Assembly: GCA_009917695.1 (NCBI GenBank)
Contig: JAACJG010000003.1
Span: 372,001-436,000, forward strand
DNA length: 64,000 nucleotides
Direction: 5' to 3'
Origin: Candidatus Rifleibacterium amylolyticum
GTDB taxonomy: Bacteria; Muiribacteriota; Ozemobacteria; Ozemobacterales; Ozemobacteraceae
The notes under the pieces were generated by a model that ran no database searches, was not told the DNA's origin, and saw only the letters and a list, made by a program, of their open reading frames with translations. Below are positions 5,434 to 31,479 of the stretch, piece by piece. Position 1 is the stretch's first letter; every line of letters begins with the position of its first letter. The position numbers were made by a program, and so were the translations under genes.

Positions 5434-8322
5434 ATGAAATTGCGCAGAGGGAACTGGTTCAACCTGTTGGCCAGAATTGTTTACGGCCTTCTGTTGCCGG
5501 CTGGTCTGCTTTATGTTGCTATGTACAGCCATTACGGCCTGGTGCGGGAGCGCCAGATTATGGAATGGCGCGAAAAAATGCGTGACTCGCTCGATCAGAT
5601 CAGCAAGTATCATTCTGATGAAAAATATTTTCATGGCATGCTGCAGGCCGATTTTCGCAGGGCTGACAGTTCTGCCAGGCCAATGCACGAATGCAACCGT
5701 CGTCTGAAATACTATAAATCCAGATACCCCGGCATGTTCAGGTTTACCGTCTACGACTCATCCGGGCGTATTATCGATGAAATGACCGATGAAAAGCGTT
5801 TTCAGTATGTTTTTAAAGGCATGCATCAGGTTATTGCAAGCGTTAAGGCGCATGTAGCCGAAGTAATTATTCCTTATCCCGATCGTCTCAATGATGTGCG
5901 CAGCCGTATTGGTCTTTTGCGCGGATATTTCGGGCAGTTCCTTATGGAAAAGCACCTGAGTCTGCCTCTGCTCGAAGGCTATCTTGGCAGTTGTATAAGA
6001 GCCAGCGAAGAACCTGAAAAGGCGCTGCTCTGGTATCAGCGATTGAAAAATTTTACGATAGTAGTATTTGTTCACCGAGATATGATCGGACGCGATATAG
6101 GCCCGCGACTGATCGTTGACCGCTACAATCAACAAGATACGGCAATACAGCTTGGTTTGTTCGATACTCAGCAGATGAATGTTTATGGTATCGATCGTCA
6201 TCACAACGAAATGGTAATTCAGGCGAACGCTTATGCCAATTCAGCGGTTGAATTTGTCGAAAATGAGCATAGCCTGATCTTTTTCAGGCAGATTTCACCT
6301 CGTTTGATAGTGTTTTCTCTGCTCGACAAACAGATGAATCTGATTCATCCTGAGCGGGCAACTGTCGAATTCATGTTGCGGATGATTCGCTGGCTTATTC
6401 TGGCAGCTTTCTTGGTCTTTTGTGTCAGTCTGCGTTCAGCTGATTTTGCTCTGTCGATAAGGCAGAAGCTACTGTTGCTTTTTCTGTTTGCCAATGGATT
6501 GCCAATGCTGATTCTGGCGGCAACTGCCTATGAGTTTTTCGAACAGAAAAAGAACTCTCTTATCAATGCTACGCATGATCAGTCTGTTCGCATCATCAAA
6601 CAGTTTGACAATGGTTACCCTGATGGGCGCGAAAGAATGGCCGGCCTGATCACCGACTATGTCAGCGAAAAAAATCGCCAGTATGGCAAGAGAAAGTGGC
6701 CAGACGAGGAGATTGAAAGTCTGAAGAAATTTATACTTACCTTCAATCCGGGCGAAAGTTACATCTACGATTGCGATGGCAACCAGATTCTGCACGCCGG
6801 CAGCGAAGCCTTGCCCAACTCGGTAAAGATCATCAGGGATTTTTTCAAGGGCGCTCTCGAATTTTTTAACCATGCTGATGCGGATTTTGTTGGAGCCCGC
6901 CGAACCATGCTCGAAAAGATCACGGATGATAGTGGTCTTTATGCTGGAGTTCTCGAACAGCTTGGCAACATCAGCCCACAAAATTTTGGCTCAGGTCTGC
7001 GCTGGACCTATCTGGAACTGCTGGGTGACCGATCAAATCATGATTCGTGGGGATTTCTGGTGATTTCGTGGCGTCCCGGCGATCTGCAACGCGCCTTTCT
7101 TAATCAGCATCTTGAAGAAGTTAATCGTAAGATCAGCCCGCGCAAACTGTTGGTTATGGAAAAAGGCACCGAAACAATATTCCCTCTGAATGCCCAGCAT
7201 CATCGCCAGGTGCGCAATATAATGCATCTTACGCAATCGCGTAAACTGATTACAGAAAATAACCTCGGTTTGTCGGGAGAACATTTTGTGGCGACTTCGC
7301 TTGTTGGAATCGAGCTGTCTGATGCCATAATCATGACTTTGTATCCGAGCTCACTCATCCTTGGCGAAATCGAAGAATTGCGGCGCGGCGTAATTCTGGC
7401 CGGTCTTCTTAGTTTTTTCATCGTGCTGGTAATTGTCAGGTTTTTTTCGGGGCGCCTGTTACGCCCGGTTAATGCGCTTTCGCAGGGCATGCGTTCGATC
7501 GCGCGCCGAGATTTTAAATATCGCATCGACTATTCCTCGGGCGATGAGTTTGGTGGGCTTACTTCAGCTTTTAATGCAACCATTGCCGGCATGCATGAAC
7601 TGGCTGTTGGCACTGCCGTTCAAGAGAGCCTGCTGCCTCCTGGTAGAGAGCATTTCGGTCGCGTCAGTCTTTTTGCCCGTTCAATTTTTATGAGCAAAAT
7701 GGGTGGCGATTATTTTGATTATTTTAAAGTCGATGAGCAGCGATTTGGCGTATATTTTGGCGATGTCGCCGGGCACGGAATTCCGGCTGCCCTGGTCATG
7801 TCAATGGCCAAGGCGGTGGTCGCCTCTTCTGACGAGGCGAGAAAAGCCGGGCCGGCCGAGCTGCTGAAGAGCGCAAATTCTTTGTTTCTGCACCTCAAAT
7901 CAAGAGGCTGGAAACGCATGATGACGGCGCTTTGCCTCGAAGTGAATTATCAGACAGGTGAATTCAGGGTAGCCAATGCCGGGCAGTGTTACCCGGTAGT
8001 TGTGAGTGCCGCCCGCGATAAAGTTGATTACGTTAAGGTCGTCGGAATGCCATTGGGTAGCCAGGCGCGCAAGCCTTATTCTGAAATCAGCGGCCGGCTC
8101 ATGCCCGGCGATTCACTGATTCTCTATACCGACGGCATAATTGAGGCTACCAACGCCATGGGCGAAGCATTCGACTTTTCCCGCTTTGACAAACTTTTGC
8201 TGGCAAGCTGGCATGCTGATCTGGAAACATGGTGGGAGGGCATTTACCGTGGTTATCAGGGCTGGGCTGCAGCGCAGGATGATGATATCACCTTTCTGAT
8301 GTTGAGATATGACAATGACTGA
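5434..8322 (+). CDS. Membrane receptor with HAMP and SpoIIE/PP2C phosphatase domain (copy A, intact)
   Basis: 962 residues. Predicted order: TM1 about 12-34; an extracytoplasmic segment to about 315; TM2 about 316-335 and TM3 about 346-370; a second extracytoplasmic segment; TM4 about 648-668; HAMP about 669-722; a RsbU/SpoIIE-type PP2C domain from about 735 to the end. Catalytic metal ligands are all present: Asp759 in GGDYFDYF, Asp777 and His781 in GDVAGHG, Asp900 in YTDGIIEA, Asp950-Asp951 in DDDIT. Such enzymes dephosphorylate anti-anti-sigma (STAS) proteins in partner-switching circuits. No STAS or RsbW-type gene is visible here. It is the first gene of a five-gene operon, overlaps copy B by 14 bases and is paralogous to the gene at 11230. 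Confidence 0.9.
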   Translation: MKLRRGNWFNLLARIVYGLLLPAGLLYVAMYSHYGLVRERQIMEWREKMRDSLDQISKYHSDEKYFHGMLQADFRRADSSARPMHECNRRLKYYKSRYPGMFRFTVYDSSGRIIDEMTDEKRFQYVFKGMHQVIASVKAHVAEVIIPYPDRLNDVRSRIGLLRGYFGQFLMEKHLSLPLLEGYLGSCIRASEEPEKALLWYQRLKNFTIVVFVHRDMIGRDIGPRLIVDRYNQQDTAIQLGLFDTQQMNVYGIDRHHNEMVIQANAYANSAVEFVENEHSLIFFRQISPRLIVFSLLDKQMNLIHPERATVEFMLRMIRWLILAAFLVFCVSLRSADFALSIRQKLLLLFLFANGLPMLILAATAYEFFEQKKNSLINATHDQSVRIIKQFDNGYPDGRERMAGLITDYVSEKNRQYGKRKWPDEEIESLKKFILTFNPGESYIYDCDGNQILHAGSEALPNSVKIIRDFFKGALEFFNHADADFVGARRTMLEKITDDSGLYAGVLEQLGNISPQNFGSGLRWTYLELLGDRSNHDSWGFLVISWRPGDLQRAFLNQHLEEVNRKISPRKLLVMEKGTETIFPLNAQHHRQVRNIMHLTQSRKLITENNLGLSGEHFVATSLVGIELSDAIIMTLYPSSLILGEIEELRRGVILAGLLSFFIVLVIVRFFSGRLLRPVNALSQGMRSIARRDFKYRIDYSSGDEFGGLTSAFNATIAGMHELAVGTAVQESLLPPGREHFGRVSLFARSIFMSKMGGDYFDYFKVDEQRFGVYFGDVAGHGIPAALVMSMAKAVVASSDEARKAGPAELLKSANSLFLHLKSRGWKRMMTALCLEVNYQTGEFRVANAGQCYPVVVSAARDKVDYVKVVGMPLGSQARKPYSEISGRLMPGDSLILYTDGIIEATNAMGEAFDFSRFDKLLLASWHADLETWWEGIYRGYQGWAAAQDDDITFLMLRYDND

Positions 8323-11254
8323 CACCGACAAGCGAAAATGCATGGCAAACTGGCTGATGTTCGCATTTTTTGCGGTAGTTGTGCCGTTGCTGGTGGCATG
8401 GCAGACTTTTGTCTATCTTGAGAAGTTGCATGCTGAATCTTCTTTAAGACGCTACCAGATTAAAGCCGCCGACATGCTTGAAAACCTTCGGGTGTCGGCA
8501 GATGCCAACCTTTATGTCTGTTCTTTGATGAACCATACCTTTCAGAATGCCAAAAATCCGCGGCTGCTCAAAAAAGATCTGGAAGAGTTGCGCAACAGCA
8601 GTGGCATGAAGTTTGAATACATTATCTGGGACAAAAATGGCGGTATCCATTCAGCTGATTTTGACTGGCGCAGTACCGGCGCTGATATGCGCTATGCCTG
8701 GCAAACGCTCACCGGCATCGGCAGGCGCAAGATTGAGGTGGCAGATGCCAGTTCAACCAGCAATCTGCGTAAGATTTTCGGGCCGCAGTTTTTTCCCGAG
8801 CTTTACCAACGATGCTATTCCGGGAGAAACATCAGTCTTATTCTGTCTGACAGCTCTCTACAGAAAAAACTATCCTGGATCAGAATGCGGTCAAGCATGG
8901 GGCTGGCAGCTTTTTTTGACCACGATGTTGTCAAGGGTTTACCCGGGCTCAAATTCTTTATCAGTACGGTTGCCAGCAGTTCCGAAATGAAAGTTGGAGT
9001 AGTGAACGCTGAAGACTGGCTGGGTCTCGGCCCCTCTGATTTTTCTAAATCTGAAATGGCAGCGATCAGCAGCAGCTATGAAAATCCTGTCAGAATACGT
9101 GACTGGTATGTTTTTAAAAATGCTCTGAGAAAAGATTTATGCGGCATCTGCTACATAAGTGCTGACAGTATTGAGCGGCTTGCTGTAAATAAATGGGCCT
9201 GGTTGTTGATTGGCTTTCTTATGGCTTTGGCGCTTTATATTCTCTGGCGCAGTTATCGGGTTATCTGTTGTGGTAGCAGTCTCAGTCTCAATATTAGAAA
9301 ACAGCTGATTATTCTTTTTGTGCTGTCGAACGCGATTTCACTTCTGATAATGGCACTGATAGGGCATGATTACCTCGGTCAGTACCGGCTGTATCTACAG
9401 ACAGAGAGCTTCAGCAAGGGCGTAACCTTTCTGCAGAATATCGACGAAATGTTTGTCGGTGAATATTCCCGTCAGCTGCGAAGAATGCGCAAATCTCTCG
9501 GCATTCTGGAGAAGCGCCTTAAGAACCATCGTCCTGACCGCAACAACATCATGGAGTTTCTGAACGCACAGTCTGGCGATCATTTCAGGCTTTTTCTTAT
9601 CGGCAGCACTACTCCATATATTGGCAGTGAGCTGGGAATAATGAAGGATGGCAAGTTCGTCGAAGAGATTCATATCGACTGGGCACGTTACAAATCAATG
9701 CAGACGCTTGTCGATTCTATGGGCAAGCTTGGTCAGTATTATCTGGCGCTGCTCAATCGTAAACCGATTTCTGAAATGATGATGGCACAGGTCGAGCTTA
9801 TTGCAGAATCGCTTGGGCAGCTCCGTCCGCTCGAAATGTTTCAGGAGTTTTTTGCTGCTACCGGTTCGTTCTGGCAGTGGGGAATGGGCTTTCGCTACTT
9901 TCCTGCTTATATCGATCTTCTCAGAGATCCTGACAGCGGGCTGGCCAACTACGTGTTTCTCTATCTGTGGAACGCCGACAGGCTGCACCGGCACTACATC
10001 AACCAGCTTATCACCGATTTTAACCGCAATCCGATTGGAATCAAGGTAATGGCGGTCGATGAAAACTTCTTTTATTCCAATCCGCCAGAATTGCTCGAAA
10101 ACCAGCAGTTGCGTCTCTACTCAGCCAAACTACGCGAGAGGTCTGGTGTCGAAATTGAATTTTGCGACTGGGAAGGCGAACAACATTTGCTTATGGGGCT
10201 TAAATGCACGTCGATAGACACTATTCGTCTGATCGGCCTTTATCCCGCTTCGGCCATAGATCGCAAGGTAACTCGTAAACAACAGATTTTCGTTGCTCTG
10301 GCAATTGTCAGTATTCTGGTTTCACTTGCCATGGGGCTTTTTGTTTCGCGCTCGATTCTTATTCCTCTGGCCGAATTACAGCGCGGTATCGCGGCTCTGC
10401 AGCAACGTGATTTTGCCTTCCGACTGGCCGATCTGGGCGGAGATGAATTTGGCAATCTCGCCAGAGTATTTAACACCACGCTTGTCGATCTTGAAGAACT
10501 CCAGGTTGCTTCTACCGTTCAGGAAAAGCTGAGCGATAACATGTCTGAAGTTGCTCATTCTGGTTGTCTGAAGTGGTTTGCTGCCAGTTCAAGCCAGTAT
10601 CGTTTTGCCGGAGACTACCTTGCTGTTGAGCAGATCTCTGCTGAGAAAGTGATGATTCTTCTCGGCGATGTTGCTGGTTCGGGTATCGGCGTCAGCCTTA
10701 TCGTCGCTTTTGTTAAAGCGGCTCTTTTGCAGCTGAAACAACTGTATGACCGACCAGAACAGCTTTTGTTGCGGCTTGATTTTCTTCTGCGCGAACTGAG
10801 CAACAGAGCTGGTCGCAAATGTATGACGATGCAGTGCGCGCTGCTCGACTGCCAGAAAGCTGAAGTTATTGTTGCCAATGCCGGCCACTGTTTTCCTGTA
10901 AGAGTCAATCTCATCGAAGGCAATGCAAAAGTTGTCGAAATGCCTTCTACTCCTCTTGCCACCGGAAGCAGAGTCTCATGCTCTGTCAAGTCCTTCAATC
11001 TGCAGCCGGGTGAGAGTATGATTCTGTACAGCGGCGGATTTTATCGCAGCTGCGAAAATGGTTTTGCCGATTTTATCAAAGATCTGGTGCAACTTGGAAA
11101 TTGCTGCCCGAAGAAATGGTATGAGACCGTGATTGCCGCAGTAAATGCTAGAATTGATGCTTCTGCCGGCCGCGATGACATGACTATGGTGGTAATAAGT
11201 TTTAACGAAAAGTCGGAAAGAGAAAACGCTTGTCTGAAGACGCCAGAAAAATAA
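8309..11254 (+). CDS. Receptor with degenerate SpoIIE/PP2C domain (copy B, predicted pseudophosphatase)
   Basis: 981 residues with the same layout as copy A: N-terminal TM, first outer segment, paired central TMs (about 295-315 and 328-350), second outer segment, TM, HAMP (LIPLAELQRGIAAL onward) and a PP2C-like domain. Two ligands remain, Asp769 in AGDY and Asp787 in GDVAG. The GHG histidine is Ser791, and the Asp of the TDG motif is Gly909 (YSGGF). The final GRDDMT is kept. Loss of the TDG aspartate usually abolishes metal-dependent phosphatase activity, so I infer a regulatory pseudoenzyme. Outer regions resemble the gene at 14121 (FGPxFFP, FFDHDV) more than copy A. ATG 8309 or 8315 could start; both overlap copy A. 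Confidence 0.85.
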   Translation: MTMTDTDKRKCMANWLMFAFFAVVVPLLVAWQTFVYLEKLHAESSLRRYQIKAADMLENLRVSADANLYVCSLMNHTFQNAKNPRLLKKDLEELRNSSGMKFEYIIWDKNGGIHSADFDWRSTGADMRYAWQTLTGIGRRKIEVADASSTSNLRKIFGPQFFPELYQRCYSGRNISLILSDSSLQKKLSWIRMRSSMGLAAFFDHDVVKGLPGLKFFISTVASSSEMKVGVVNAEDWLGLGPSDFSKSEMAAISSSYENPVRIRDWYVFKNALRKDLCGICYISADSIERLAVNKWAWLLIGFLMALALYILWRSYRVICCGSSLSLNIRKQLIILFVLSNAISLLIMALIGHDYLGQYRLYLQTESFSKGVTFLQNIDEMFVGEYSRQLRRMRKSLGILEKRLKNHRPDRNNIMEFLNAQSGDHFRLFLIGSTTPYIGSELGIMKDGKFVEEIHIDWARYKSMQTLVDSMGKLGQYYLALLNRKPISEMMMAQVELIAESLGQLRPLEMFQEFFAATGSFWQWGMGFRYFPAYIDLLRDPDSGLANYVFLYLWNADRLHRHYINQLITDFNRNPIGIKVMAVDENFFYSNPPELLENQQLRLYSAKLRERSGVEIEFCDWEGEQHLLMGLKCTSIDTIRLIGLYPASAIDRKVTRKQQIFVALAIVSILVSLAMGLFVSRSILIPLAELQRGIAALQQRDFAFRLADLGGDEFGNLARVFNTTLVDLEELQVASTVQEKLSDNMSEVAHSGCLKWFAASSSQYRFAGDYLAVEQISAEKVMILLGDVAGSGIGVSLIVAFVKAALLQLKQLYDRPEQLLLRLDFLLRELSNRAGRKCMTMQCALLDCQKAEVIVANAGHCFPVRVNLIEGNAKVVEMPSTPLATGSRVSCSVKSFNLQPGESMILYSGGFYRSCENGFADFIKDLVQLGNCCPKKWYETVIAAVNARIDASAGRDDMTMVVISFNEKSERENACLKTPEK

Positions 11255-14124
11255 CTCTCTTTCTTGCCAGGCTGACTTTTGCTCTGGTGCTGCCAGTCTA
11301 TCTGATCTGGCTGATACTGGTTTCACACTTTACCATGCAGCGCGACAATGAGATTCAAAGCAGCTTTGCAACTCTTGATCTGGCTCTCGACAATCTCGAA
11401 AATCTGCATGATGACAGGGCTTTTCTGCATGCCGTTCTACAAAAGAATTTTGTCATGGCCGATCGCTCAGACCAGCCGCAAAAGCAGCTGGAAAACCGGA
11501 TCAGGGCTTTCAGAAAGCTTTTTGGTGAGCGCATAAGCTTTGTTGTCTATGACGGAAATGGCGCGATAAACAAGGACCTGACAGAAGAGAAGCGCTTTCA
11601 GTATGTCCTCAAGAGCATGTTTGAAGTAATGGTGTTGTTGCGGCAATATTTTGTCAGCGATCCTTTCGCTGACCCGGCTAGTTTTGACAAGATCAATCAG
11701 CGCATAAACCTTTTGCGTGGCTATTTTGGGCCATATCTGCTGCCGGCTCATCTCTTTGCGCCTCTGCGCCCGGGTTATCTGGGCAGTTGTCTTACTGTAA
11801 GCGATGAGAGTGCGCGCAAGCTGCTCTGGTACTACCCAGGAGATAACTTCTCTCTGGCCTGCTTTATCGATGCCAGGTTGCAATACAATCAGATTGGGCC
11901 GCGACTGATTGTACAGCACTTCAATCATGGCGCTCAGCCAGAAAAACTGGCTTATGTGAAAACCCGAATATACGGAAATTTTGGCTTGCCGCTCGACCGC
12001 GGGCTTGCCAGTCAGTTGTTGATTGAAGTACGTAATTTTGAGAGTTATGCGGTATCCAAGCGTCAGAGCCGCGACTTTCTCGTCAATATCAGACAGGTTT
12101 CGCATGATCTGATTGTTCTCAGCTATCTTGATAAAAGTGGCATAGCTAAGCCAGAGCAGCGTGCTCTCGCGTTGTTGCTGAACATTTTCAGGTGGCTTTT
12201 TGTCGGCGGTTTTATTCTCTATTGCCTGTCTTTACGCCATTATGGATTCTGTTTGTCGGTACCACAGAAAATGCTGCTGCTTTTTGTTTTTGCCAATGGC
12301 TTACCTTTGCTGATGCTGGTTTCAACCGGGTATGAATATTTTAATGAAAAGAAAAGTGAACTGATAAATGCAGCTCATCAGGAATCTCTGCGAATTCTCC
12401 GCGAATTTGACCTGCGTTTTCCCGAAGTGTCGAACTCACTGGCTCAGAGAATGAACGCTTTTATCGATGAGCGTAATCAGCTTTATGGCAAAGAGCAATG
12501 GCCAGAAGCAGAGATAGAAAAATTAAATAAATTGCTGCTCGAAATCGACCCGCAGGAAGCCGCATTATTTGAGGCTGGCGGCCGTCGGCGGCTTTATATT
12601 TCGAATTCGACCGACCGCGCCGAGCGTCTGGTAACCAGTATGTTGATGAAGGCAATTGTCTCTTTTAATCGAAACAAGGTTGAAGAGACAGTCAAACGCG
12701 ACTCGATGCTGGCGAAGATGTCTTCTGACGATCTCATGCTGCACTACTTTTTATCGACACTAGACCGGTTTTCGATGCTTGGAGCTGGTACCAGTGAGCG
12801 TTTCACTTATCTGAAATTTATGGGTGACCAGAAGAATGCAGATTTATGGGGAATTCTGGGTGTCTCCTGGGATCGTAACAGATTTCTACAGGCTTTTACT
12901 CCCGGTCGTCTCGAGCAAAGCCGTGCCGCTGTTCTGCCGAGATTACTGGCAGTAATGGATAAGAAGAGCGAAAGGATTTTTGCGCTGCAAAATGCCGAGA
13001 CTCCTGTAACTCGCAGACTTATGCGTCAGACCAGTAGTCGAAAATTGATTACCGAAAAGGATGTTGAACTTGATGGCCAAAGGTATCTGTTTACATCAAT
13101 TCCTGGTAATGAGCTTTCAGAAGGCATACTCGTCGCTTTCTATCCACAGAATATTATCGATACACGTATTAATCGCTTGAAAATTGCTATTGCTCTTGTG
13201 ATTTTGCTCGTTTTTGCAGTGTTATTTCAGATTGTCAGATTATTTTCACGGCGCCTGCTGTTGCCTGTTGAAGCGCTGGCAGAAGGCATCGGCCATATCC
13301 GGGCAGGTGATTTCAAGTACCGTGTTGATTTTCAATCTGAAGATGAGCTTGGGCAGCTGATAAATGTGTTTAATCAGACCATGAAAGACATGCAGGATCT
13401 TGCTCTCGGAACCTCGGTTCAGGTAAGCCTGCTGCCGGCCGAAAAGTATCGCCGAGGTTCTGTCAGACTTTTTGCCCGTTCTCTGTTTATGAGCAAAATG
13501 GGGGGCGATTATTACGATTATTTCGATCTGCCAGAAAACCGCCTGGGTATTTTCTTTGGCGATGTTGCCGGTCATGGCATACCTGCGGCTATGATAATGT
13601 CAATGGCAAAGGCTGTTATCAGCAGTATGCAGAAAGATTTTGCCGGCCCGGCCGATCTGCTTGGCAGAACTAATAAGATTCTTCTGAAACTCAGGGAAAG
13701 AAACTGGCGACGCATGATGACTGCACAGGTGATCAGTCTTGACTGTCAGTCTGGCGAGTTTGTTATCTCGAATGCCGGACATTGTTATCCATACATCGTC
13801 GGCAAAGATGGTTCTTCGGCAACTCCTCTTGAGATCAATGGCATGCCCCTGGGCAGCGCAAGTAAAAAAGCCCACTCTGAAAGTGCCGCTATTATTGGTC
13901 TTGATGAAACTCTGGTTTTGTACACAGATGGCATTGTTGAATCCGTCAATGTTCAGGGCGAGATGTTTGGTTACCGACGCTTTGCCATGCTTTTGCAATC
14001 AGCCTGGGCAGATGATCTCGAAGAATACTGGAAAAACATTATGTCGGGTTACAAAAGCTGGGCGGTTAACCAGGACGATGATCTTACCTTTATGATAATT
14101 CGTCTGTCCGGAGAATCCAGATGA
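11230..14124 (+). CDS. Membrane receptor with HAMP and SpoIIE/PP2C phosphatase domain (copy A', intact)
   Basis: 964 residues, starting at TTG 11230 with GGAAAGAG upstream, and overlapping copy B by 25 bases. It is a full-length paralogue of the gene at 5434. Shared blocks include LRGYFGP, GYLGSC, IGPRLIV and LLLLFVFANGLP in the sensory half. The four-TM layout and HAMP are the same, and the PP2C ligands are complete: Asp760 in GGDYYDYF, Asp778 and His782 in GDVAGHG, Asp900 in YTDGIVES, then DDDLT. It should dephosphorylate a phosphoserine/threonine on a STAS-type partner in response to an outer signal (family knowledge; the partner is not visible). It differs from copy A mainly in the first outer segment, suggesting a different ligand. 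Confidence 0.9.
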   Translation: MSEDARKITLFLARLTFALVLPVYLIWLILVSHFTMQRDNEIQSSFATLDLALDNLENLHDDRAFLHAVLQKNFVMADRSDQPQKQLENRIRAFRKLFGERISFVVYDGNGAINKDLTEEKRFQYVLKSMFEVMVLLRQYFVSDPFADPASFDKINQRINLLRGYFGPYLLPAHLFAPLRPGYLGSCLTVSDESARKLLWYYPGDNFSLACFIDARLQYNQIGPRLIVQHFNHGAQPEKLAYVKTRIYGNFGLPLDRGLASQLLIEVRNFESYAVSKRQSRDFLVNIRQVSHDLIVLSYLDKSGIAKPEQRALALLLNIFRWLFVGGFILYCLSLRHYGFCLSVPQKMLLLFVFANGLPLLMLVSTGYEYFNEKKSELINAAHQESLRILREFDLRFPEVSNSLAQRMNAFIDERNQLYGKEQWPEAEIEKLNKLLLEIDPQEAALFEAGGRRRLYISNSTDRAERLVTSMLMKAIVSFNRNKVEETVKRDSMLAKMSSDDLMLHYFLSTLDRFSMLGAGTSERFTYLKFMGDQKNADLWGILGVSWDRNRFLQAFTPGRLEQSRAAVLPRLLAVMDKKSERIFALQNAETPVTRRLMRQTSSRKLITEKDVELDGQRYLFTSIPGNELSEGILVAFYPQNIIDTRINRLKIAIALVILLVFAVLFQIVRLFSRRLLLPVEALAEGIGHIRAGDFKYRVDFQSEDELGQLINVFNQTMKDMQDLALGTSVQVSLLPAEKYRRGSVRLFARSLFMSKMGGDYYDYFDLPENRLGIFFGDVAGHGIPAAMIMSMAKAVISSMQKDFAGPADLLGRTNKILLKLRERNWRRMMTAQVISLDCQSGEFVISNAGHCYPYIVGKDGSSATPLEINGMPLGSASKKAHSESAAIIGLDETLVLYTDGIVESVNVQGEMFGYRRFAMLLQSAWADDLEEYWKNIMSGYKSWAVNQDDDLTFMIIRLSGESR

Positions 14125-17021
14125 ATCAGAGACAATTGGCATGGCTAAAGCTTATTGCGGTGACTTTGTTTTTGCCCTCACTTATTCTTGCTGTGGGCAG
14201 CTGGTACATGTTTTCACTCGGGCGCGAACTAAGATTGAGAGATATAGAAAGCGAAGCCGGTGAACTTCTTGAAAGCATGCGCTATGTCGCCGCAACCGAA
14301 AAGTATCTGTGCAAGAGTATCGACGACATTTTCAACATGAATCCGGAAGTTGATAATCTGCAGAATGAGCTCGAAAAGTTTATGAAAAGCCATGAACTGC
14401 GTGCCAGATATATCATCTGGGACGCCGATGGCAGCGTAAAGCACAGTAATTTTGACTGGCACGGCATTCCCGGTAACTGGCGACAGGCCTGGAAAGAAAT
14501 GAAAAAAGTGATCGCCCGGCCAGGATACACAAAAAATATGCCGGAAAAGGCACTCGAAAATCTCAGGCTGATATTTGGCCCGCATTTTTTCCCGCGATAC
14601 CATCATATGTGTTATGCAGGCCGCTTTCTTACTCTTTTGCGAACAGACGTATCCAAAACCTATCCATTAGTCTGGATGAAACTGATGGAAAACTCCAGCC
14701 TGTTCATGTTTTTCGATCATGATGTTCTCACCAGCAGTTGCGGGTTAAAGCATCTGGTTACTAATGAAACGCATGCGCTTAAATCGGGTTACTTTGACTC
14801 AGGCCGGATTGTCACCAACGACACCACTTTGGCGCAAAAGCTGCAGCCCATGATGGAGCGCATGAAGGGCAGCTATAGCCGTATGCATGATATAGCAGGT
14901 TATAAAATCTTTACCAATTTCATTTCAAACAAGATCACCGGTTTTTGCGCAATAGAAACAGAAAAGCTTGAATCTTACAATGTTTCGCTCTGGTTTGTTG
15001 CGGCTTTGCTCGCAATGACCTTGATTGCCATGATTTTCGCGACAGTCTCATACCGACTGGTAGTTCTACAGAAAAGCGCTTCTTTGACTCTGACCCGGCA
15101 GCTGCTGATTCTTTTTCTGGTCTCGAACTTGTTGCCGGGATTTGTTCTGATGATTATCGGCTCTGATTATCTGCAACAGATGCGAAGAAGTCTGGTGAAC
15201 AGCGCATTTGATCAAAGCAACAGCTATCTCCAGAATATTGACGAACTATATATCAGCGAGCTTACCGTGCAGAAAGGACGCATGGAAAAACATCTGCCCG
15301 AGCTTATTGCCGCCCTCGCAAAAAATCAGATAAATCGTGCTTCGATCAGAGGTTTTATTGATAAACAACTGCCGCAGCCATATCGTTTCTTTCTGGTTGC
15401 CAGCGACAGCGGCATTGTGGCCGGTCATCGTGGAATTCTCAAAAATGGCAAAGTCAAGGAATCCTTTGTTAAATCATTTAAGAATGATGATGTTCAAAAA
15501 AACACATTAGACGCAGTTCATAAGCTGGGCAGCTATGTAATGAACGTTCTCAATCAGCGTGCCGTCAGCAAAAAAGTCGGAACTGAAGTAGAATTCGTCG
15601 TCGAAACACTCATGCAGAGAACTCCCCTCGAAATGATTCAGATGTTCATCGAGCTCGATCATTTCTGGCGCTGGGCATTGGGCAGCAAGAGTTATCCGAC
15701 TTATCTCAAGATGATCAGGCTATTCGATCAACAGGTTTACGATTACCTTCTGCTCTACCTCTGGGACGCATACGAGCTCGAAATTGAATTCATGAACCGG
15801 ATATATCACAATCTCAATCGAAACGAGTATGGACTTAAGATTCTTGCGATGGACGAGCGTTTTGAAAAGGCCTTTCCACCGGAAGCTTTGCAACATGAGC
15901 GGATAAAGGAGTTTCTGCTCAAAATGCGCGATCGCACGATAACCCGGCCGGAGTTCTGTGATGTTGAAGGCTCCGAATATCTGCTGATTGGTCATAAATG
16001 CATATTCATGGAAAATCTGCGGTTGCTGGCGCTTTACCCTGTAGAAAATATCAATAAAGAGATTGCCGGCAAAAGAAAATTGCTGCTCATGTTCGTTCTG
16101 GTGAGTTTTCTTGTCTCGATATCGCTGGGCCTGTTCGTTTCTGGTAGTATTACCGGGCCTCTGGCCATTTTGCAGAAGGGTGTCGAAGCCATGCACAAGC
16201 GCGATTTTGCCTATCGCCTGCCTGATCTTGGCGGCGATGAGTTCGGTAATCTCGCCCGCATATTCAATGAAACGCTCGTTGATCTAGAAGAAATGCACGT
16301 TGCCAGAATCGTTCAGGAAAAGATCATGACTCAGATGGATGCTCCTTTAAAGGCAGGCCCTCTGCAGCTTTACGGGCAGACTATTTCTTTGTCGGGAATG
16401 GGCGGCGATTATTTTGAGCTGCTCGAAACAGAGCCTGATAAGGCGGCCGTGCTGCTTGGCGATGTTGCTGGCAGCGGGGTGGCTACCAGTTTGATTCTGG
16501 CTTTTATCAGATCTTCTACCATGCAGTTACAAGACTATATTGCCGAGCCGGGAAGGTTTCTGCATAGACTCAACCAGGTAATGTCGGTTAATGCCGGGCA
16601 ACGCAAACCTTTTGCCTGTCAGTATGCTTATCTTGCCGGCGAAGATATTGTAAGGCTTGCCTCCGCCGGCTTACCTTACCCTCTGATCGTAGATCACCTG
16701 AGACTTTCGAGTTCTCTGCTTGAGATTCCTGCAATACCGCTTGGCTGTAGCCCTGGTTTCAATCCGGCTGTGACTGAAGTGCGTCTGCCGCCAGGGCACA
16801 GTCTGGTCTGCTTTACCGGAGGCTTTATCGGACACGGAACCTTTGATTATGGTAGAATGACTGATCTGATTTGTAATTCTGTCGATGCAGATCCTCAAAA
16901 GTTCTGCCAAAAATGTTTCGATAATTATTTTGCCCAGGTGAATCGCAGTGAATGCAGAAACGATCTTAGTCTGCTGATAATCCACAACCCCGAGGCCGCC
17001 GATGGAAAGTCGAATAGTTGA
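14121..17021 (+). CDS. Receptor with degenerate SpoIIE/PP2C domain (copy B', predicted pseudophosphatase)
   Basis: 966 residues, ATG overlapping the previous stop by four bases with GGAGAA upstream. It is a paralogue of the gene at 8309 over its whole length (FGPHFFP, MFFDHDV, YLQNIDELY). The PP2C domain keeps Asp763 in GGDYFE and Asp781 in GDVAG. It carries Ser785 in place of the GHG His, Gly900 in place of the TDG Asp (FTGGF) and RNDLS instead of DDxT. Copy B has the same His-to-Ser and Asp-to-Gly changes, so they predate the duplication and have been maintained. That argues for a selected non-catalytic role, perhaps pairing with the adjacent intact phosphatase. Its end overlaps slyX by 20 bases. 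Confidence 0.85.
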   Translation: MNQRQLAWLKLIAVTLFLPSLILAVGSWYMFSLGRELRLRDIESEAGELLESMRYVAATEKYLCKSIDDIFNMNPEVDNLQNELEKFMKSHELRARYIIWDADGSVKHSNFDWHGIPGNWRQAWKEMKKVIARPGYTKNMPEKALENLRLIFGPHFFPRYHHMCYAGRFLTLLRTDVSKTYPLVWMKLMENSSLFMFFDHDVLTSSCGLKHLVTNETHALKSGYFDSGRIVTNDTTLAQKLQPMMERMKGSYSRMHDIAGYKIFTNFISNKITGFCAIETEKLESYNVSLWFVAALLAMTLIAMIFATVSYRLVVLQKSASLTLTRQLLILFLVSNLLPGFVLMIIGSDYLQQMRRSLVNSAFDQSNSYLQNIDELYISELTVQKGRMEKHLPELIAALAKNQINRASIRGFIDKQLPQPYRFFLVASDSGIVAGHRGILKNGKVKESFVKSFKNDDVQKNTLDAVHKLGSYVMNVLNQRAVSKKVGTEVEFVVETLMQRTPLEMIQMFIELDHFWRWALGSKSYPTYLKMIRLFDQQVYDYLLLYLWDAYELEIEFMNRIYHNLNRNEYGLKILAMDERFEKAFPPEALQHERIKEFLLKMRDRTITRPEFCDVEGSEYLLIGHKCIFMENLRLLALYPVENINKEIAGKRKLLLMFVLVSFLVSISLGLFVSGSITGPLAILQKGVEAMHKRDFAYRLPDLGGDEFGNLARIFNETLVDLEEMHVARIVQEKIMTQMDAPLKAGPLQLYGQTISLSGMGGDYFELLETEPDKAAVLLGDVAGSGVATSLILAFIRSSTMQLQDYIAEPGRFLHRLNQVMSVNAGQRKPFACQYAYLAGEDIVRLASAGLPYPLIVDHLRLSSSLLEIPAIPLGCSPGFNPAVTEVRLPPGHSLVCFTGGFIGHGTFDYGRMTDLICNSVDADPQKFCQKCFDNYFAQVNRSECRNDLSLLIIHNPEAADGKSNS

Positions 17022-25634: not shown

Positions 25635-28586
25635 ATGATGCAAAAATTTAAAACAGCAAGGCGGGCAGACCGTTTGATTCTTCTGCTGGCCGGTTTTGTG
25701 GTGCTTCTGATGCCTTTGTGGTTTTTCAACAGCCTGTTAAGGACTTCGCTGCAAAGAACCCGGGAATCTTCTCTCTCATTGCTGCGAGAAGAGCTTCTAC
25801 AGTCGGCAGAAAAGGTCAGGCGCGCCCTTAAGCCCGAGTTCTACGTCGAAGATGTTCTGCGCGAAGTTCACCGGGAAGTACTGCCGCAGATACCACCGGA
25901 TCTCATTGTGATGCAGCCTCAGAAGGATTTCGGGCATGACATCTTCGATGCTTCGTTGCCGGTGAAAATGTTGCAGGGCCTCCGTCGGCGCGGTCTTGAC
26001 GCGATTCTTGTGCATGTCGATGCGCCGGAATTCGAAAAATATCATTACTGGCATTCACAGGAACTCCAGAGCCAGTGTGACGAACCGGACATGCTGGCCC
26101 TGTCGCTTTCTTTCATCAACTATATAACAGCTGTGGAGCTTCATCAGAAGCGTTACGCCAAACTGTGGTACCGTTTTACCCCCGTTGAAAATCTTCCGGA
26201 TAATATCAAACGCGGTCATACCATAGACAAAATAAAGGCGCCATTTGCCTACCTGACCCGGTTCAGCGAAATGCTCGGTGTTCATGACCGGGCAACCGAA
26301 CATTTCACCGACTATTTTTCGCAGCAGTCGATCTTTCGCTACTCATTCTGCTGCATGAGTGCAGTTAACCTGCATGGTGCCTACACCGTCGTCGTGCCGC
26401 AGAAGTCTGTCAGGCCTGAAGAAATGCTGAAAAGCGCACTGTGTATCAACAATCTCGATCACTCTGTCTCTATTACCGACAAGCGTTCCAACCAGTCCGC
26501 TTTTGTCGTTACCCCGGATGGTGCTGATTATTTTATCAAAGCGCCTTCTGAGTTCTGGAACCATCTCCGGTTTTCCGGACTATCAGTTAGATCAGCATTC
26601 TCTGGCAGTAGCGCAGGTTTTGATATAAGAATCTCCGGCCGTCATAAACCCGCGATCATGAGTCTGGAGTCACAATACCGTCTGTTTCGGCTGACAGCAT
26701 CGCTCTTATTGATAGTGTACTGTGCTGCGGCATTTCATTTCTGGTTGTTCGGTCTGCATCTGCGCCTGTCGGTTCGCCGCCGGCTGGCGATGATTCTGGG
26801 GTTGATCGTGATTCTGCCGGTTCTGGGAGTCGGTGCGCTGACGCTGCTGGCGCTGCGTTCTTTTGAACGTGTTGCCGATAATCATCTGATTCAATATACC
26901 CGGAATAATCTACATGAAGTCGCGCTTTTGAACGATGAGAATCTGCTGCGCCAGATGGGGGCAGGTATCGAGATCAAGCGGCGGGTTGAAGCTGAAACTT
27001 CTGATGAGAAAGATTTGATGAAGAGCCTTGAGCGGCCTGAAGATGATTTGAAATGGTTTTTGGCGTGGACCAATTCTATAACGGAGTGTCGAGATGATGG
27101 TGTTATCGCTCAATACAATGGTTTTCGTCTGCCCGCTCCTGCCAACCGGCTCGTGCACAGTCTCGTCGATAAATACATGACAAGCCTTGGTCTGCTCAAA
27201 AGTGGTAGAAAATCGGATTTTTCGCGGACCATGACTCTTGGAATGCTTGACAATTGCGTTACCTCGGCGCTTGAAGAAGCCTGGATGGTACATGAGGGAA
27301 CGGTTCAGCGTGAGCTGACGCATACTGCCGATACCAGTCGCGCCAACCTGCTGGTCGTCAAAAGCGGTAGCGGCCGCTACCGTCTTTTATATCATCGAGT
27401 TTCAAGCCTGGGCGAACATGTGAACAAATATCTGACCAGTCTGGCTGAGAAAAATCCCGGCTGGTTTGTAAGGCGTGGGCTATATGGCAACGTCAGTGTG
27501 GGAGTGCGACAGAGAAAGGTCGGAGAATTGTTCGCGTATACCTGGCCGCCCGATTGTCTGCTTTCTCCAGCCATGACGTTCAGTTTTGAGAGAGCAATGT
27601 CGTCGCGAGATCATGGCCATGGTGTCATCAAACGAGATAATGAGCTCGAAGTGAGAGCATGGCGATATGAGGAAGGTAAGAGCTCTATTCTGGCGGCAAC
27701 CGGTAAAAGCGATGGCATAAAGCTGGCTTTTGCCGATCTTACGGCGAAGATGCTGCTTCCAGCTCTCTTTGGCTATGCCATTCTTCTTCTATACTTTGTG
27801 ACATCTGTCATCGCTGAGTTTATCAATGGCCCGGTCAGAATACTCAATTCTGGAGTCAATGATCTGAACGATGAGAACTATGGTGTTCTGATCGCCGGGT
27901 TTTCACAGGACGAATTTTCCAAGGTTACATCAGCATTCAATGAAATGTCAGTTGCTCTCAAACAGAGAGAAATGATAAAACGCTACGTTTCCCGAGCCCT
28001 GCTTGAAAGAGTGCAGACATCGGATGGCCTTGTCTCGGAAGAAGGGAAAATGATCAGAGTTGCTGTTCTTGCCTCGGATATCAGAAGTTTCACGGCGATC
28101 AGCGAGAAGTATTCGCCGGCAGAAGTCGTCGACATGCTGAATTCGTATTTTACCAGCATGGAATCGGCTATCAGCACTCATGGTGGCTTTATCGACAAAT
28201 ACATCGGCGATGCCATACAGGCAGTGTTTTACGATGATCCAGCTCTGGATAACTTTATTGTACGCGCTGCTCGGTCGGCTCTACAGATGCGGCGCAATCT
28301 CGCTGCTCTGAATCGTTCGCGCCGGGAGCAGGGTTTGTTCACTATCGAAAATGGTATCGGAATCGACAGCGGTCTCGTCGTTTCCGGCAGTATCGGCAGC
28401 GAAAACGGTCGCAAAGACTTTACCATTGTTGGCAGAGTTATCGAACAGGCAGCTCTTCTCGAATCCCTTACGGTGAATACCCGAAGCAGAATTCTAATAA
28501 GCCGGTCCGCCATCGGCAATGCTGGGACGGGCTTAATTACACGGGAGTTTGCCGCTGATTCACTGGAGTTGCTGGATGTCGCATAA
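25635..28586 (+). CDS. Membrane receptor-type class III nucleotide cyclase, metal-site (C1-like) subunit
   Basis: 983 residues: TM1 about 14-34, an outer segment, TM2 about 352-375, TM3 about 384-405, a second outer segment, TM4 about 708-730, HAMP, then a class III cyclase domain (about 805-975). Both metal-binding Asp are present (Asp815 in SDIRSFT, Asp859 in GDAIQAVF), as are Lys855 and Asp928 of the adenine-selecting pair. The transition-state Asn and Arg of the VNxAxR motif are replaced by Glu937 and Leu941. Alone it should be inactive. The next gene has the reverse pattern, so I infer a heterodimeric adenylate cyclase in the inner membrane. The stop overlaps the second gene by 11 bases. 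Confidence 0.88.
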   Translation: MMQKFKTARRADRLILLLAGFVVLLMPLWFFNSLLRTSLQRTRESSLSLLREELLQSAEKVRRALKPEFYVEDVLREVHREVLPQIPPDLIVMQPQKDFGHDIFDASLPVKMLQGLRRRGLDAILVHVDAPEFEKYHYWHSQELQSQCDEPDMLALSLSFINYITAVELHQKRYAKLWYRFTPVENLPDNIKRGHTIDKIKAPFAYLTRFSEMLGVHDRATEHFTDYFSQQSIFRYSFCCMSAVNLHGAYTVVVPQKSVRPEEMLKSALCINNLDHSVSITDKRSNQSAFVVTPDGADYFIKAPSEFWNHLRFSGLSVRSAFSGSSAGFDIRISGRHKPAIMSLESQYRLFRLTASLLLIVYCAAAFHFWLFGLHLRLSVRRRLAMILGLIVILPVLGVGALTLLALRSFERVADNHLIQYTRNNLHEVALLNDENLLRQMGAGIEIKRRVEAETSDEKDLMKSLERPEDDLKWFLAWTNSITECRDDGVIAQYNGFRLPAPANRLVHSLVDKYMTSLGLLKSGRKSDFSRTMTLGMLDNCVTSALEEAWMVHEGTVQRELTHTADTSRANLLVVKSGSGRYRLLYHRVSSLGEHVNKYLTSLAEKNPGWFVRRGLYGNVSVGVRQRKVGELFAYTWPPDCLLSPAMTFSFERAMSSRDHGHGVIKRDNELEVRAWRYEEGKSSILAATGKSDGIKLAFADLTAKMLLPALFGYAILLLYFVTSVIAEFINGPVRILNSGVNDLNDENYGVLIAGFSQDEFSKVTSAFNEMSVALKQREMIKRYVSRALLERVQTSDGLVSEEGKMIRVAVLASDIRSFTAISEKYSPAEVVDMLNSYFTSMESAISTHGGFIDKYIGDAIQAVFYDDPALDNFIVRAARSALQMRRNLAALNRSRREQGLFTIENGIGIDSGLVVSGSIGSENGRKDFTIVGRVIEQAALLESLTVNTRSRILISRSAIGNAGTGLITREFAADSLELLDVA

Positions 28587-31479
28587 AAAAAGAACTCTGA
28601 TCAGTGAAAAGGTTTCTATCTCCGCTGCCGGACTGTTTCTGACATGGCTTTTGATGGTAGTTATTCCGGTTGCCATTTCTTTTATGGCTCTGCATTACTT
28701 CCTTGATGAATATGCCAGCTATTCGGAAACCGGAAAGCTTGCCGATGCTTACAACCAGCTTGAGCTCTACAGGAGCGCTACGGTTGTCGAAAACTTTCTG
28801 ACAGCCCGCACAGCAGTCATATCTGATATGTCTGCCGACAAATTTACCCGAAACGGCCTGGTTGGGCTGAAAAGCCATATCGACAACGCTATCGGCGGCG
28901 AAAGCATTCTGTGTGTTTTTTTTGATCGTGATTGCAGAAATGTCATGGCCATACCCGGCAACTCCGCTGAAATGCCGGGAATGGTTCTGCCCCCAGCTTC
29001 TCTCATGAAGAGGCAGATTCAGTTCCTGTACCAGCAGATGCACGGTTCTGATCAGAAAAATCAGCAGAACAGGACTCTGACGTCTGAAGCTCAGCGCCAG
29101 GCCCTTTCCATGCAGCAACTCTTCAAAACCATAACGCCGGTGACGCTCAGAACCGATCGGGCCGTCAAAAGCTTTTCAGCGCATTATGGCGGCGAACTTT
29201 ATTTTTTATATGTCGAATTCAGGCACCGCTCTGGCGGGCCTGATGGCTGTCTGATCATTCTGAGGGGTCAGGATTTCTCGACGGACTTTATGTTGAAAAC
29301 TTTGCAGCGGCGATTTCCCCTGTGCCGGGTGGCCTCGCGCGAAATTGACGTTGGCAGAAGCGAGCGGCAGCCAGAAATCATGCACAGCGGAGTATTGCGG
29401 CTGAATGATCGTCTTCTCATCACCGCTCCTGCTGATCAGCGCTTCGTCAGACATGTGATTCATGGCGGCGGCATCGTGCTCAGGGAAAATGAGAGCCGTG
29501 CCGTACCGTTTCTGCAGTATCATCTGCCCCTGACGTCGATGCAGCATCATTTTACCGCGGCCCGCCGCGGCTTTGCCGTTATTGCGGCTATACTGGTGTG
29601 TCTGTCCGGTCTTTATTGTCTGCGATCCGCCTTGTTCGGAATAGAACTTACCGGCAGTTTCAAGAGAAGGATTATGGCTACCACTGCGTTGGCGGCGCTG
29701 TTCCCCTTTACTTTCTTTGCCACCGGGTTCTATCTGCATCTGCAATATGACGAGTTTCTCGGCAAAATAAACCTGCTGCAGCATGTAAATGCCAGGCTGG
29801 CCATTTTCAACAATGATCTCGACCAGTATTTTGCCGACATCGAAGGCGTTCTCGCCATGGATCTGCAGCAGATCAACAAAAACAACTATTTCGATGATGA
29901 GCAGGTTCAGAAGATATTTGCCGGCATTGGCGGGCGGGTTCCGATATCGCGCATATTTCTGCAAAGACCGGATGGCCCGGTTGTAACGGAGTTCGCTGAT
30001 AAAATGTCGCGATATGACGAGAACGATCTGAGCACTGCCATCGAGACATTTTTTCCACGACGAACTCTCCAGTTGTTGCAGGAGACAGGTGTTGTCGACA
30101 GAACCCGGCAGGACATTCTCAGTATCCCCGGAAACAATATCAAAGTAGCGCTTATCGGCACTTCCATGATTTCGAACGGTTCTTTTTACAATCTGAATCT
30201 GTCTGACTATCCGGTATGGCTATCCAATTTCAAAATCACCGATAAAGATGCTGATGGCCGCCGGACCGTGCTGGGCCTTGTGTTCGCACGGCTGGAACCG
30301 GCGCCATTGCTCTCCGATTTTCTTGCGAAGAGCGAATTTGCAGCTTTGTCTTATCGTGAGGAATATGGGAATTACCGGATCGAATATGCATTTTTTCCTA
30401 TCGAAAGAACCGGTATGCAGCAGATCTGGCATGGCAGCGGATTCACCGCTAACGAAATTATGCAGCAGGCCGCCGCGCGTAACCGAACAGAGACCGTTCC
30501 CACTACATCTGATTCTGGAGATGAGAGCTTCGTCATCAGCCGGCTTAATCAGGGAATACCGCATATTGCCGTGGCGCTGGCACGACCGCGGGGTATAGTG
30601 ACGAACTTGCGGACATCTCTGATGATAGGTCTGGTAAGTCTGCTCTACCTGTTTCTTCTTCTGTTCATTGCCGGTAAGATGCTTGACCTGTTCTTCGTCG
30701 CACCGGTAATCGAGCTGGCAGACTGTGCTGAAAAAATTGCCCGCGGCGGCGATTCATGGTCGCTCAAATTATCTACCGGCGATGAACTCGAAGAACTCAA
30801 CGAAAGTTTTGTCGGCATGGTCAAAGGTCTGCAGCAACGAAATATGCTCAAAGACTACGTTTCGCAAGACGCTTATTCAGATCTGGCTGCGACTGACGGC
30901 CAGAACCTGGCTCCTGGCGGTGAATATCGTGAGTGCACTGTTTTTTTTGCTGCGATAAAGGATGCCGGCAATGTTGCCGACGAGTCTTCGCCGCAGCAGG
31001 TTGTCGAGTTTCTCAACCGTTTCACGACGATTGGCGACAGAATCGCCAGGGAGAACAACGGCAGTATCGACAAGATTATCAACCAGACGTTGATGCTGGT
31101 ATTCAGGGAAAATGCCGGCGATGAGACGATGCATGCCTTGCGGGCTGCCAGAGCCGCTCTGGAGTTGGCGTCGGCGGTTAAGGCCGCCGGCTACGCCGGA
31201 GTCTATGCCGGTATCGCTTCAGGAACGGTAATCTCAGGTAGAATAGGCTCTTATCAGGGCAAACTTGATTTTACCGTCATCGGCAATCCGGTAAATCTCG
31301 CGGCCAGACTTAAAAATGAGGCAGCCGAAAGCACCACCGGCATCATCATTTCGGGTTCGACCATGCGTCTTCTCAAGGGGGCCGGTCGCGTAAATTTCCT
31401 GCGAAGATGTTCTTTGAAGGGTAAAGCCCGTGAATACAACATCTACGAATTGATCGATCTGCGCGATCAGCCAGGGTAA
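28576..31479 (+). CDS. Membrane receptor-type class III nucleotide cyclase, transition-state (C2-like) subunit
   Basis: I place the start at ATG 28576 (967 residues), with GGAG eight bases upstream and an 11-base overlap with the preceding gene; a longer frame start at 28549 lacks a site. Layout matches its partner: TM1 about 18-40, TM2-TM3 about 331-385, TM4 about 680-702, HAMP, and a cyclase domain about 783-950. Both metal Asp are lost (Ala793 in FFAAIKD, Gln837 in IINQT). Lys833, Asp898 in LDFTVIG, Asn907 and Arg911 in VNLAAR are intact. This complements the preceding subunit exactly, as in C2 of mammalian adenylyl cyclases. A CAGGG-TAAA-CCCTG hairpin spans the stop. Confidence 0.88.
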   Translation: MSHKKRTLISEKVSISAAGLFLTWLLMVVIPVAISFMALHYFLDEYASYSETGKLADAYNQLELYRSATVVENFLTARTAVISDMSADKFTRNGLVGLKSHIDNAIGGESILCVFFDRDCRNVMAIPGNSAEMPGMVLPPASLMKRQIQFLYQQMHGSDQKNQQNRTLTSEAQRQALSMQQLFKTITPVTLRTDRAVKSFSAHYGGELYFLYVEFRHRSGGPDGCLIILRGQDFSTDFMLKTLQRRFPLCRVASREIDVGRSERQPEIMHSGVLRLNDRLLITAPADQRFVRHVIHGGGIVLRENESRAVPFLQYHLPLTSMQHHFTAARRGFAVIAAILVCLSGLYCLRSALFGIELTGSFKRRIMATTALAALFPFTFFATGFYLHLQYDEFLGKINLLQHVNARLAIFNNDLDQYFADIEGVLAMDLQQINKNNYFDDEQVQKIFAGIGGRVPISRIFLQRPDGPVVTEFADKMSRYDENDLSTAIETFFPRRTLQLLQETGVVDRTRQDILSIPGNNIKVALIGTSMISNGSFYNLNLSDYPVWLSNFKITDKDADGRRTVLGLVFARLEPAPLLSDFLAKSEFAALSYREEYGNYRIEYAFFPIERTGMQQIWHGSGFTANEIMQQAAARNRTETVPTTSDSGDESFVISRLNQGIPHIAVALARPRGIVTNLRTSLMIGLVSLLYLFLLLFIAGKMLDLFFVAPVIELADCAEKIARGGDSWSLKLSTGDELEELNESFVGMVKGLQQRNMLKDYVSQDAYSDLAATDGQNLAPGGEYRECTVFFAAIKDAGNVADESSPQQVVEFLNRFTTIGDRIARENNGSIDKIINQTLMLVFRENAGDETMHALRAARAALELASAVKAAGYAGVYAGIASGTVISGRIGSYQGKLDFTVIGNPVNLAARLKNEAAESTTGIIISGSTMRLLKGAGRVNFLRRCSLKGKAREYNIYELIDLRDQPG

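Follow-up and report, generated by a model that had tools for sequence, protein, structure and literature searches.

Two adjacent genes of Candidatus Rifleibacterium amylolyticum very probably encode the two chains of a membrane-bound nucleotide cyclase, most likely an adenylyl cyclase, that is active only as a heterodimer. The genes, here called A and B, lie side by side in the window (the whole stretch of 64,000 nucleotides that was analysed), and each of their class III cyclase domains carries the catalytic residues that the other has lost. Class III sites of this composite kind are already known in mammalian C1/C2, sAC and soluble guanylyl cyclase. Bacterial enzymes, on the other hand, are treated as homodimers by Schultz (2022), who calls fused dimers of this class unknown in bacteria (PMC9552081); a 2025 paper with a shared author likewise presents bacterial class III cyclases as typically monomers that need to dimerise (PMC12505454). 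A phrase search of the open-access literature found no paper on heterodimeric or degenerate bacterial cyclases.

Gene A (25635..28586; 983 aa) and gene B (28576..31479; 967 aa from its ATG), both on the forward strand, are open reading frames with PF00211 matches well above the cut-off of 21.9 bits (54.3 bits for A, 56.6 for B). Their positions agree with the earlier note, as does the 11-bp overlap between the stop of A and the start of B (28576..28586); a GGAG at 28565-28568 is the likely ribosome-binding site of B. In A, hydropathy predicts four membrane segments, namely TM1 (aa 14-32, 25674..25730), a TM2-TM3 hairpin (aa 356-402, 26700..26840) and TM4, which leads into a HAMP-like linker (aa 708-776, 27756..27962). 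Between them lie two outer regions, each some 300 residues long, the first with a predicted alpha/beta fold (about aa 33-355, 25731..26699), the second delimited from Pfam, hydropathy and the structural model (about aa 403-707, 26841..27755). The cyclase domain, placed by PF00211 and alignment, follows at aa 808-958 (28056..28508). B is laid out as TM1 (aa 20-38, 28633..28689), outer region 1 (about aa 39-334, 28690..29577), a TM2-TM3 hairpin (about aa 335-389, 29578..29742), outer region 2 (about aa 390-681, 29743..30618), TM4 with a HAMP-like linker (aa 682-754, 30619..30837) and the cyclase domain (aa 783-951, 30922..31428), assigned by the same means. The four segments predicted in A support the earlier claim of two outer regions per chain; only three segments of B exceed the hydropathy threshold, TM3 having been placed by eye. 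The HAMP match that precedes the cyclase domain is weak in both proteins and, in A (E=0.002), falls below the curated cut-off. Pfam named no family for the outer regions of A or B, and when the predicted structure of A (pLDDT 73, pTM 0.46) was used in a structure search, the top 50 matches were cyclases only and left the outer regions unmatched.

What does each chain bring to catalysis? We assigned residue positions by alignment to solved class III cyclases (OaPAC). A keeps both metal aspartates, D815 (28077-28079) and D859 (28209-28211), and has lost both transition-state residues, with E937 (28443-28445) in the Asn position and L941 (28455-28457) in the Arg position, just as first read. B has A793 (30952-30954) and Q837 (31084-31086) in the metal Asp positions and keeps K833 for base binding (31072-31074), T900 for base recognition (31273-31275; the class IIIb residue), and N907 (31294-31296) and R911 (31306-31308) for the transition state. 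One residue of B had to be reassigned: Asp898 had been listed among the kept residues, while the recognition position, where class IIIb enzymes have Thr or Ser, is found seven residues before the Asn, at Thr900 in B and Thr930 in A, and Asp898 lies two residues before Thr900. In the alignment, neither A alone nor B alone has the full catalytic set of the dimer interface (six residues: D, D, K, D/T, N, R), which is complete only jointly, with D and D from A and K, T, N and R from B. Lys plus Thr at the base pocket (K833, T900) points to ATP as the substrate.

How might the two chains work together? We infer dimerisation, catalysis, cAMP as the product and sensing. The HAMP-cyclase ends of A and B would meet inside the cell, where, by established class III chemistry, A would give the two metal aspartates and B would give Lys833 and Thr900 to bind the base together with Asn907 and Arg911, making one complete site. 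The second site at the interface, for which B would have to give the metals and A the Asn and Arg, would be dead. Neither homodimer would have a full site, each lacking one half of every site. With two outer regions of its own on each chain, the output of the enzyme would depend on both receptors.

The same arrangement recurs throughout this genome. A PF00211 search found 61 class III domains. Of these, 36 are arranged as 18 pairs of neighbours on the same strand, roughly 3 kb apart, and the window pair is one of the 18. All 18 pairs are complementary: one domain (A-type) keeps both metal Asp and has lost Asn and/or Arg, and its partner (B-type) is missing one or both metal Asp and still has Lys, Thr, Asn and Arg. 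When the 18 sequences of each type were aligned, the invariant positions included both metal Asp in A and K, T, N and R in B. Thirteen pairs are separate overlapping genes, and the remaining five each occupy one open frame some 2000 codons long, in which a membrane half and the A domain are followed by a second membrane half and the B domain. Among the 25 standalone domains, 23 carry all catalytic residues and none is a solitary A- or B-type domain. Two standalone cyclase-like domains (L015 and L044) are degenerate at most catalytic positions, in both halves, and are neither A- nor B-type. The genome also has 19 matches to cNMP-binding domains. One of these lies in the gene that adjoins the cyclase pair at C1:277870, and a cNMP-binding protein encoded beside a cyclase pair (L031, 50-1336; C1:274142 hit) is a possible effector.

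Could adjacency, pairing or decay account for the missing residues? We scanned named genomes with a single window protein as query. Apart from those of the near relative L106, the domains found had retained all catalytic residues within reach of the sequence and the alignment, including intact cyclases lying side by side in Spirochaetes and in a gammaproteobacterium. Adjacency was rejected as the cause of complementarity, since adjacent cyclases elsewhere are intact. Of the 48 SpoIIE-type phosphatase domains that this genome also encodes, many belong to paired receptors about 1000 residues long, and most of these pairs keep both active sites; pairing was thus rejected as the cause of residue loss. 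A SpoIIE active site is contained in a single chain and a class III site sits between two, so the contrast between the two families is what the heterodimer model predicts. Pseudogene decay was rejected as well, as the kept residues are near invariant, the frames are open and the pairs co-diverge. The window itself holds four tandem two-sensor HAMP-SpoIIE phosphatase receptors (5434-17021), the second and fourth of which have Gly for the Asp of the YTDG motif and lower scores. The expansion of paired membrane receptors of about 1000 aa in this genome (G000), comprising the 61 class III cyclase and 48 SpoIIE domains, many of them paired, is unusual.

We then considered this genome together with eight others of the phylum, picking adjacent or fused domains by adjacency and not by their residues. 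Strict complementarity was found in 80 of 84 adjacent domain pairs. A search for neighbouring cyclases with the same split had been proposed in the earlier note, and both this count and the 18 of 18 in the present genome bear out its expectation. Of the four exceptions, L098 consists of two intact neighbours whose frames are unrelated, L088 is a fragment at a contig edge, L074 is a domain match split in two that is complementary by eye, and L046:8963 is a fused protein with Asn and Arg still present in its first half and the metal Asp lost from its second; L088 and L074 are artefacts. In the pair tally, 81 of 82 A domains have D/D at the metal positions, and each of K, T, N and R is retained by 80–81 of 82 B domains (T by 81). 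The deviating cells come from the split HMM hit of L074, which exchanged A and B of that pair in the tally, and from the B half of the sAC-like L101, which has S at the Lys position. This half-site pattern is far beyond chance. Each domain alone is broken, as would also be expected if cyclase activity had been lost and the pair served as a nucleotide or metal sensor signalling via its HAMP domains. Such a sensor would have no need of precisely the catalytic set, yet the union of the two partners is the full set in those 80 pairs and again in pairs of separate origin (see below), and we find this explanation highly improbable.

The residues that have been lost behave differently from those that have been kept. 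Replacements differ widely among pairs, with 15 kinds of residue at A's Asn and 15 at its Arg. The second metal Asp is still present in 50 of 82 B domains and the first in three pairs; where the first metal position lay outside the HMM hit, B domains were read by eye as far as the sequence reaches, and the first metal Asp was found in none of these. These details bear on an alternative in which one partner is a true homodimeric enzyme with substitute residues and the other a non-catalytic regulatory pseudo-cyclase. Some class III cyclases, including mycobacterial examples, do work with non-canonical residues, and both the C1 half of L046, with its N and R, and the many B halves that keep one metal Asp, where loss is not total, favour this alternative and count against a heterodimer. 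The variety at A's Asn and Arg, however, offers no common substitute, and the kept residues are near invariant in both partners, whereas a pure regulator would need none of them; we therefore judge a homodimer with a pseudo-cyclase partner to be unlikely. Also to be set against a heterodimer is a 183-aa B-type cyclase fragment in a relative (L249, G005:C90:3861-4337), possibly a relic, for which no partner was seen.

Gene arrangement is conserved along with the residues. The junction could be measured in 53 split pairs, and every one of them has a possible start codon for the second gene 1 to 23 bases within the end of the first, a spacing consistent with coupled production of A and B in equal amounts. 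The window pair itself is found in the same-genus genome G002 (L047; DKDTEE + AKQTNR), with both genes kept, and in the MAG INTA.CYC.134 (L106, contig SABV01000159.1; DKDTEL + AKQTNR). The Erysipelotrichia label of this MAG is a doubtful guide to its phylum, and its genome (G040) is apparently identical with G003, from the genus of the window, because contig numbers, coordinates and frame lengths coincide. Relatives in which one gene was absent or fully catalytic had been named in the earlier note as a refutation, and neither G002 nor INTA.CYC.134 is such a case.

When did the split arise, and how often? A tree of 103 domains placed almost every A and B domain of the main family in one of two groups beside the intact singles, with three B domains of G009 falling outside them. 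Support for the A and B groups was moderate (SH-aLRT 80–82 in one tree, 76–86 in others). The A and B trees are mirrored (r=0.78, 35 pairs), and none of 5000 permutations reached as high a correlation. A single split, after which the pair was copied as a unit, would explain this mirroring. The pair would thus have been copied and diversified as a unit in this bacterial group and sometimes fused to one chain. Alternatively, and compatibly with a heterodimer, subunits might mix among paralogous pairs to form an A-B network and not 18 private enzymes, given that main-family A and B share key residues and probably one origin. Overlapping genes, fusions and the mirrored trees point instead to private pairing, and we regard such mixing as conceivable but rather doubtful.

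Complementary pairs also occur outside the main family. A CHASE2 receptor pair (L076, G006) groups with the intact singles L016/L017, outside the main A and B groups, and a dCache receptor pair (L099, G012) groups with another intact single. Joining either pair to the main A or B groups was rejected by AU tests (p 5e-60 to 4e-4). These trees indicate that the complementary split arose separately in CHASE2 and dCache receptors. The same split is present in a soluble C1-C2-AAA-TPR protein of G013 that resembles animal sAC. G013 has two bacterial sAC-like proteins, L100 and L101, with complementary tandem C1-C2 domains and an AAA ATPase; L100 reads DKDLRA, then HKQTNR, its His being read by eye. 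Outside the phylum, in Spirochaetes bacterium GWE1_32_154, a neighbouring pair that adjoins a CheA-like gene (L228, 1341-4771) reads DKDTGE + HKDTNR and is without an obvious membrane part. AU tests (p 0.30 and 0.05) did not show its split to be independent, which counts against the heterodimer reading. The same Spirochaete has neighbouring multi-helix membrane cyclases (L229, 1702-4350), the first DKDTND, with only the Arg lost, and the second complete, which may be an intermediate stage. In the phylum of the window's genome, single intact receptors, split pairs and fused chains coexist.

The natural fusions allowed both domains to be modelled in a single chain. We predicted the structure of one of them (L042:3678-7262; A domain, membrane half, B domain), with a mean pLDDT of 81 and a pTM of 0.57. 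Its best PDB matches were human AC5 and AC9, with alignments across both catalytic domains, and the TM-score by query length was 0.28–0.29 for AC9 as compared to 0.14 for single-domain matches. A doubled score is what an AC9-like placement of both domains would be expected to give, which is suggestive; the confidence of the model is moderate, and AlphaFold may echo known cyclase dimers. Thus, complementarity, conservation of the pair, fusions and the AC9-like model all support the original proposal that only the heterodimer would have a full active site.

How do these pairs compare with known cyclases? Like mammalian AC1–AC9, they have two non-equivalent domains, one with the metals and the other with the base and transition-state residues, and two membrane halves, the fused members sharing the order M1-C1-M2-C2. 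A membrane half lies between complementary domains of one chain in the five fused paralogues, while the window pair is two genes. In contrast to the mammalian enzymes, the base position is a class IIIb Thr and not the class IIIa Asp (in window B and its paralogues), a HAMP linker is present, most pairs are two genes, either gene order occurs and the hosts are bacterial. Each half has four predicted helices and two large outer regions as opposed to six helices with short loops; four helices were predicted in A and in each fusion half, and three were over threshold in B. Because of the class IIIb Thr, the four helices per half and the large outer regions, the family, judged from its sequences, is not a mammalian tmAC.

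Soluble guanylyl cyclase alpha and beta are encoded by two genes and form one composite catalytic site, as predicted for the two genes here. That enzyme has a soluble haem sensor and makes cGMP, whereas A and B are membrane receptors whose Lys and Thr point to ATP. ADCY10 (sAC) has C1 and C2 in one chain with asymmetric sites, like L100; unlike ADCY10, proteins of the main family lack the ATPase and have their C1 and C2 separated by a membrane half. The catalytic fold and the Lys/Thr residues are those of the class IIIb enzymes CyaC, OaPAC and CyaB, but these are homodimers with two equal complete sites and neither chain here is complete.

Read from their sequences, the fused pseudo-heterodimeric proteins have the layout that the 2022 review calls unknown in bacteria (PMC9552081). 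The review dates the mammalian fusion to an early eukaryote and regards the advantage of a duplicated, fused cyclase as an open question (PMC9552081). We suggest, tentatively, that the mammalian solution might have been reached independently here, with class IIIb homodimers turned into private heterodimers, 18 pairs per genome and several of them fused, and that the freed second site may bind a regulator like the forskolin pocket. If so, the inputs to each enzyme would come from as many as four outer regions and from one inner signal. In annotation, the neighbours of a class III domain that is missing half its residues should be searched for the other half before the domain is called inactive. 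The pairs offer many natural two-input cyclases, and with singles, split pairs and fusions coexisting and the split recurring separately, the advantage of duplication and fusion becomes testable.
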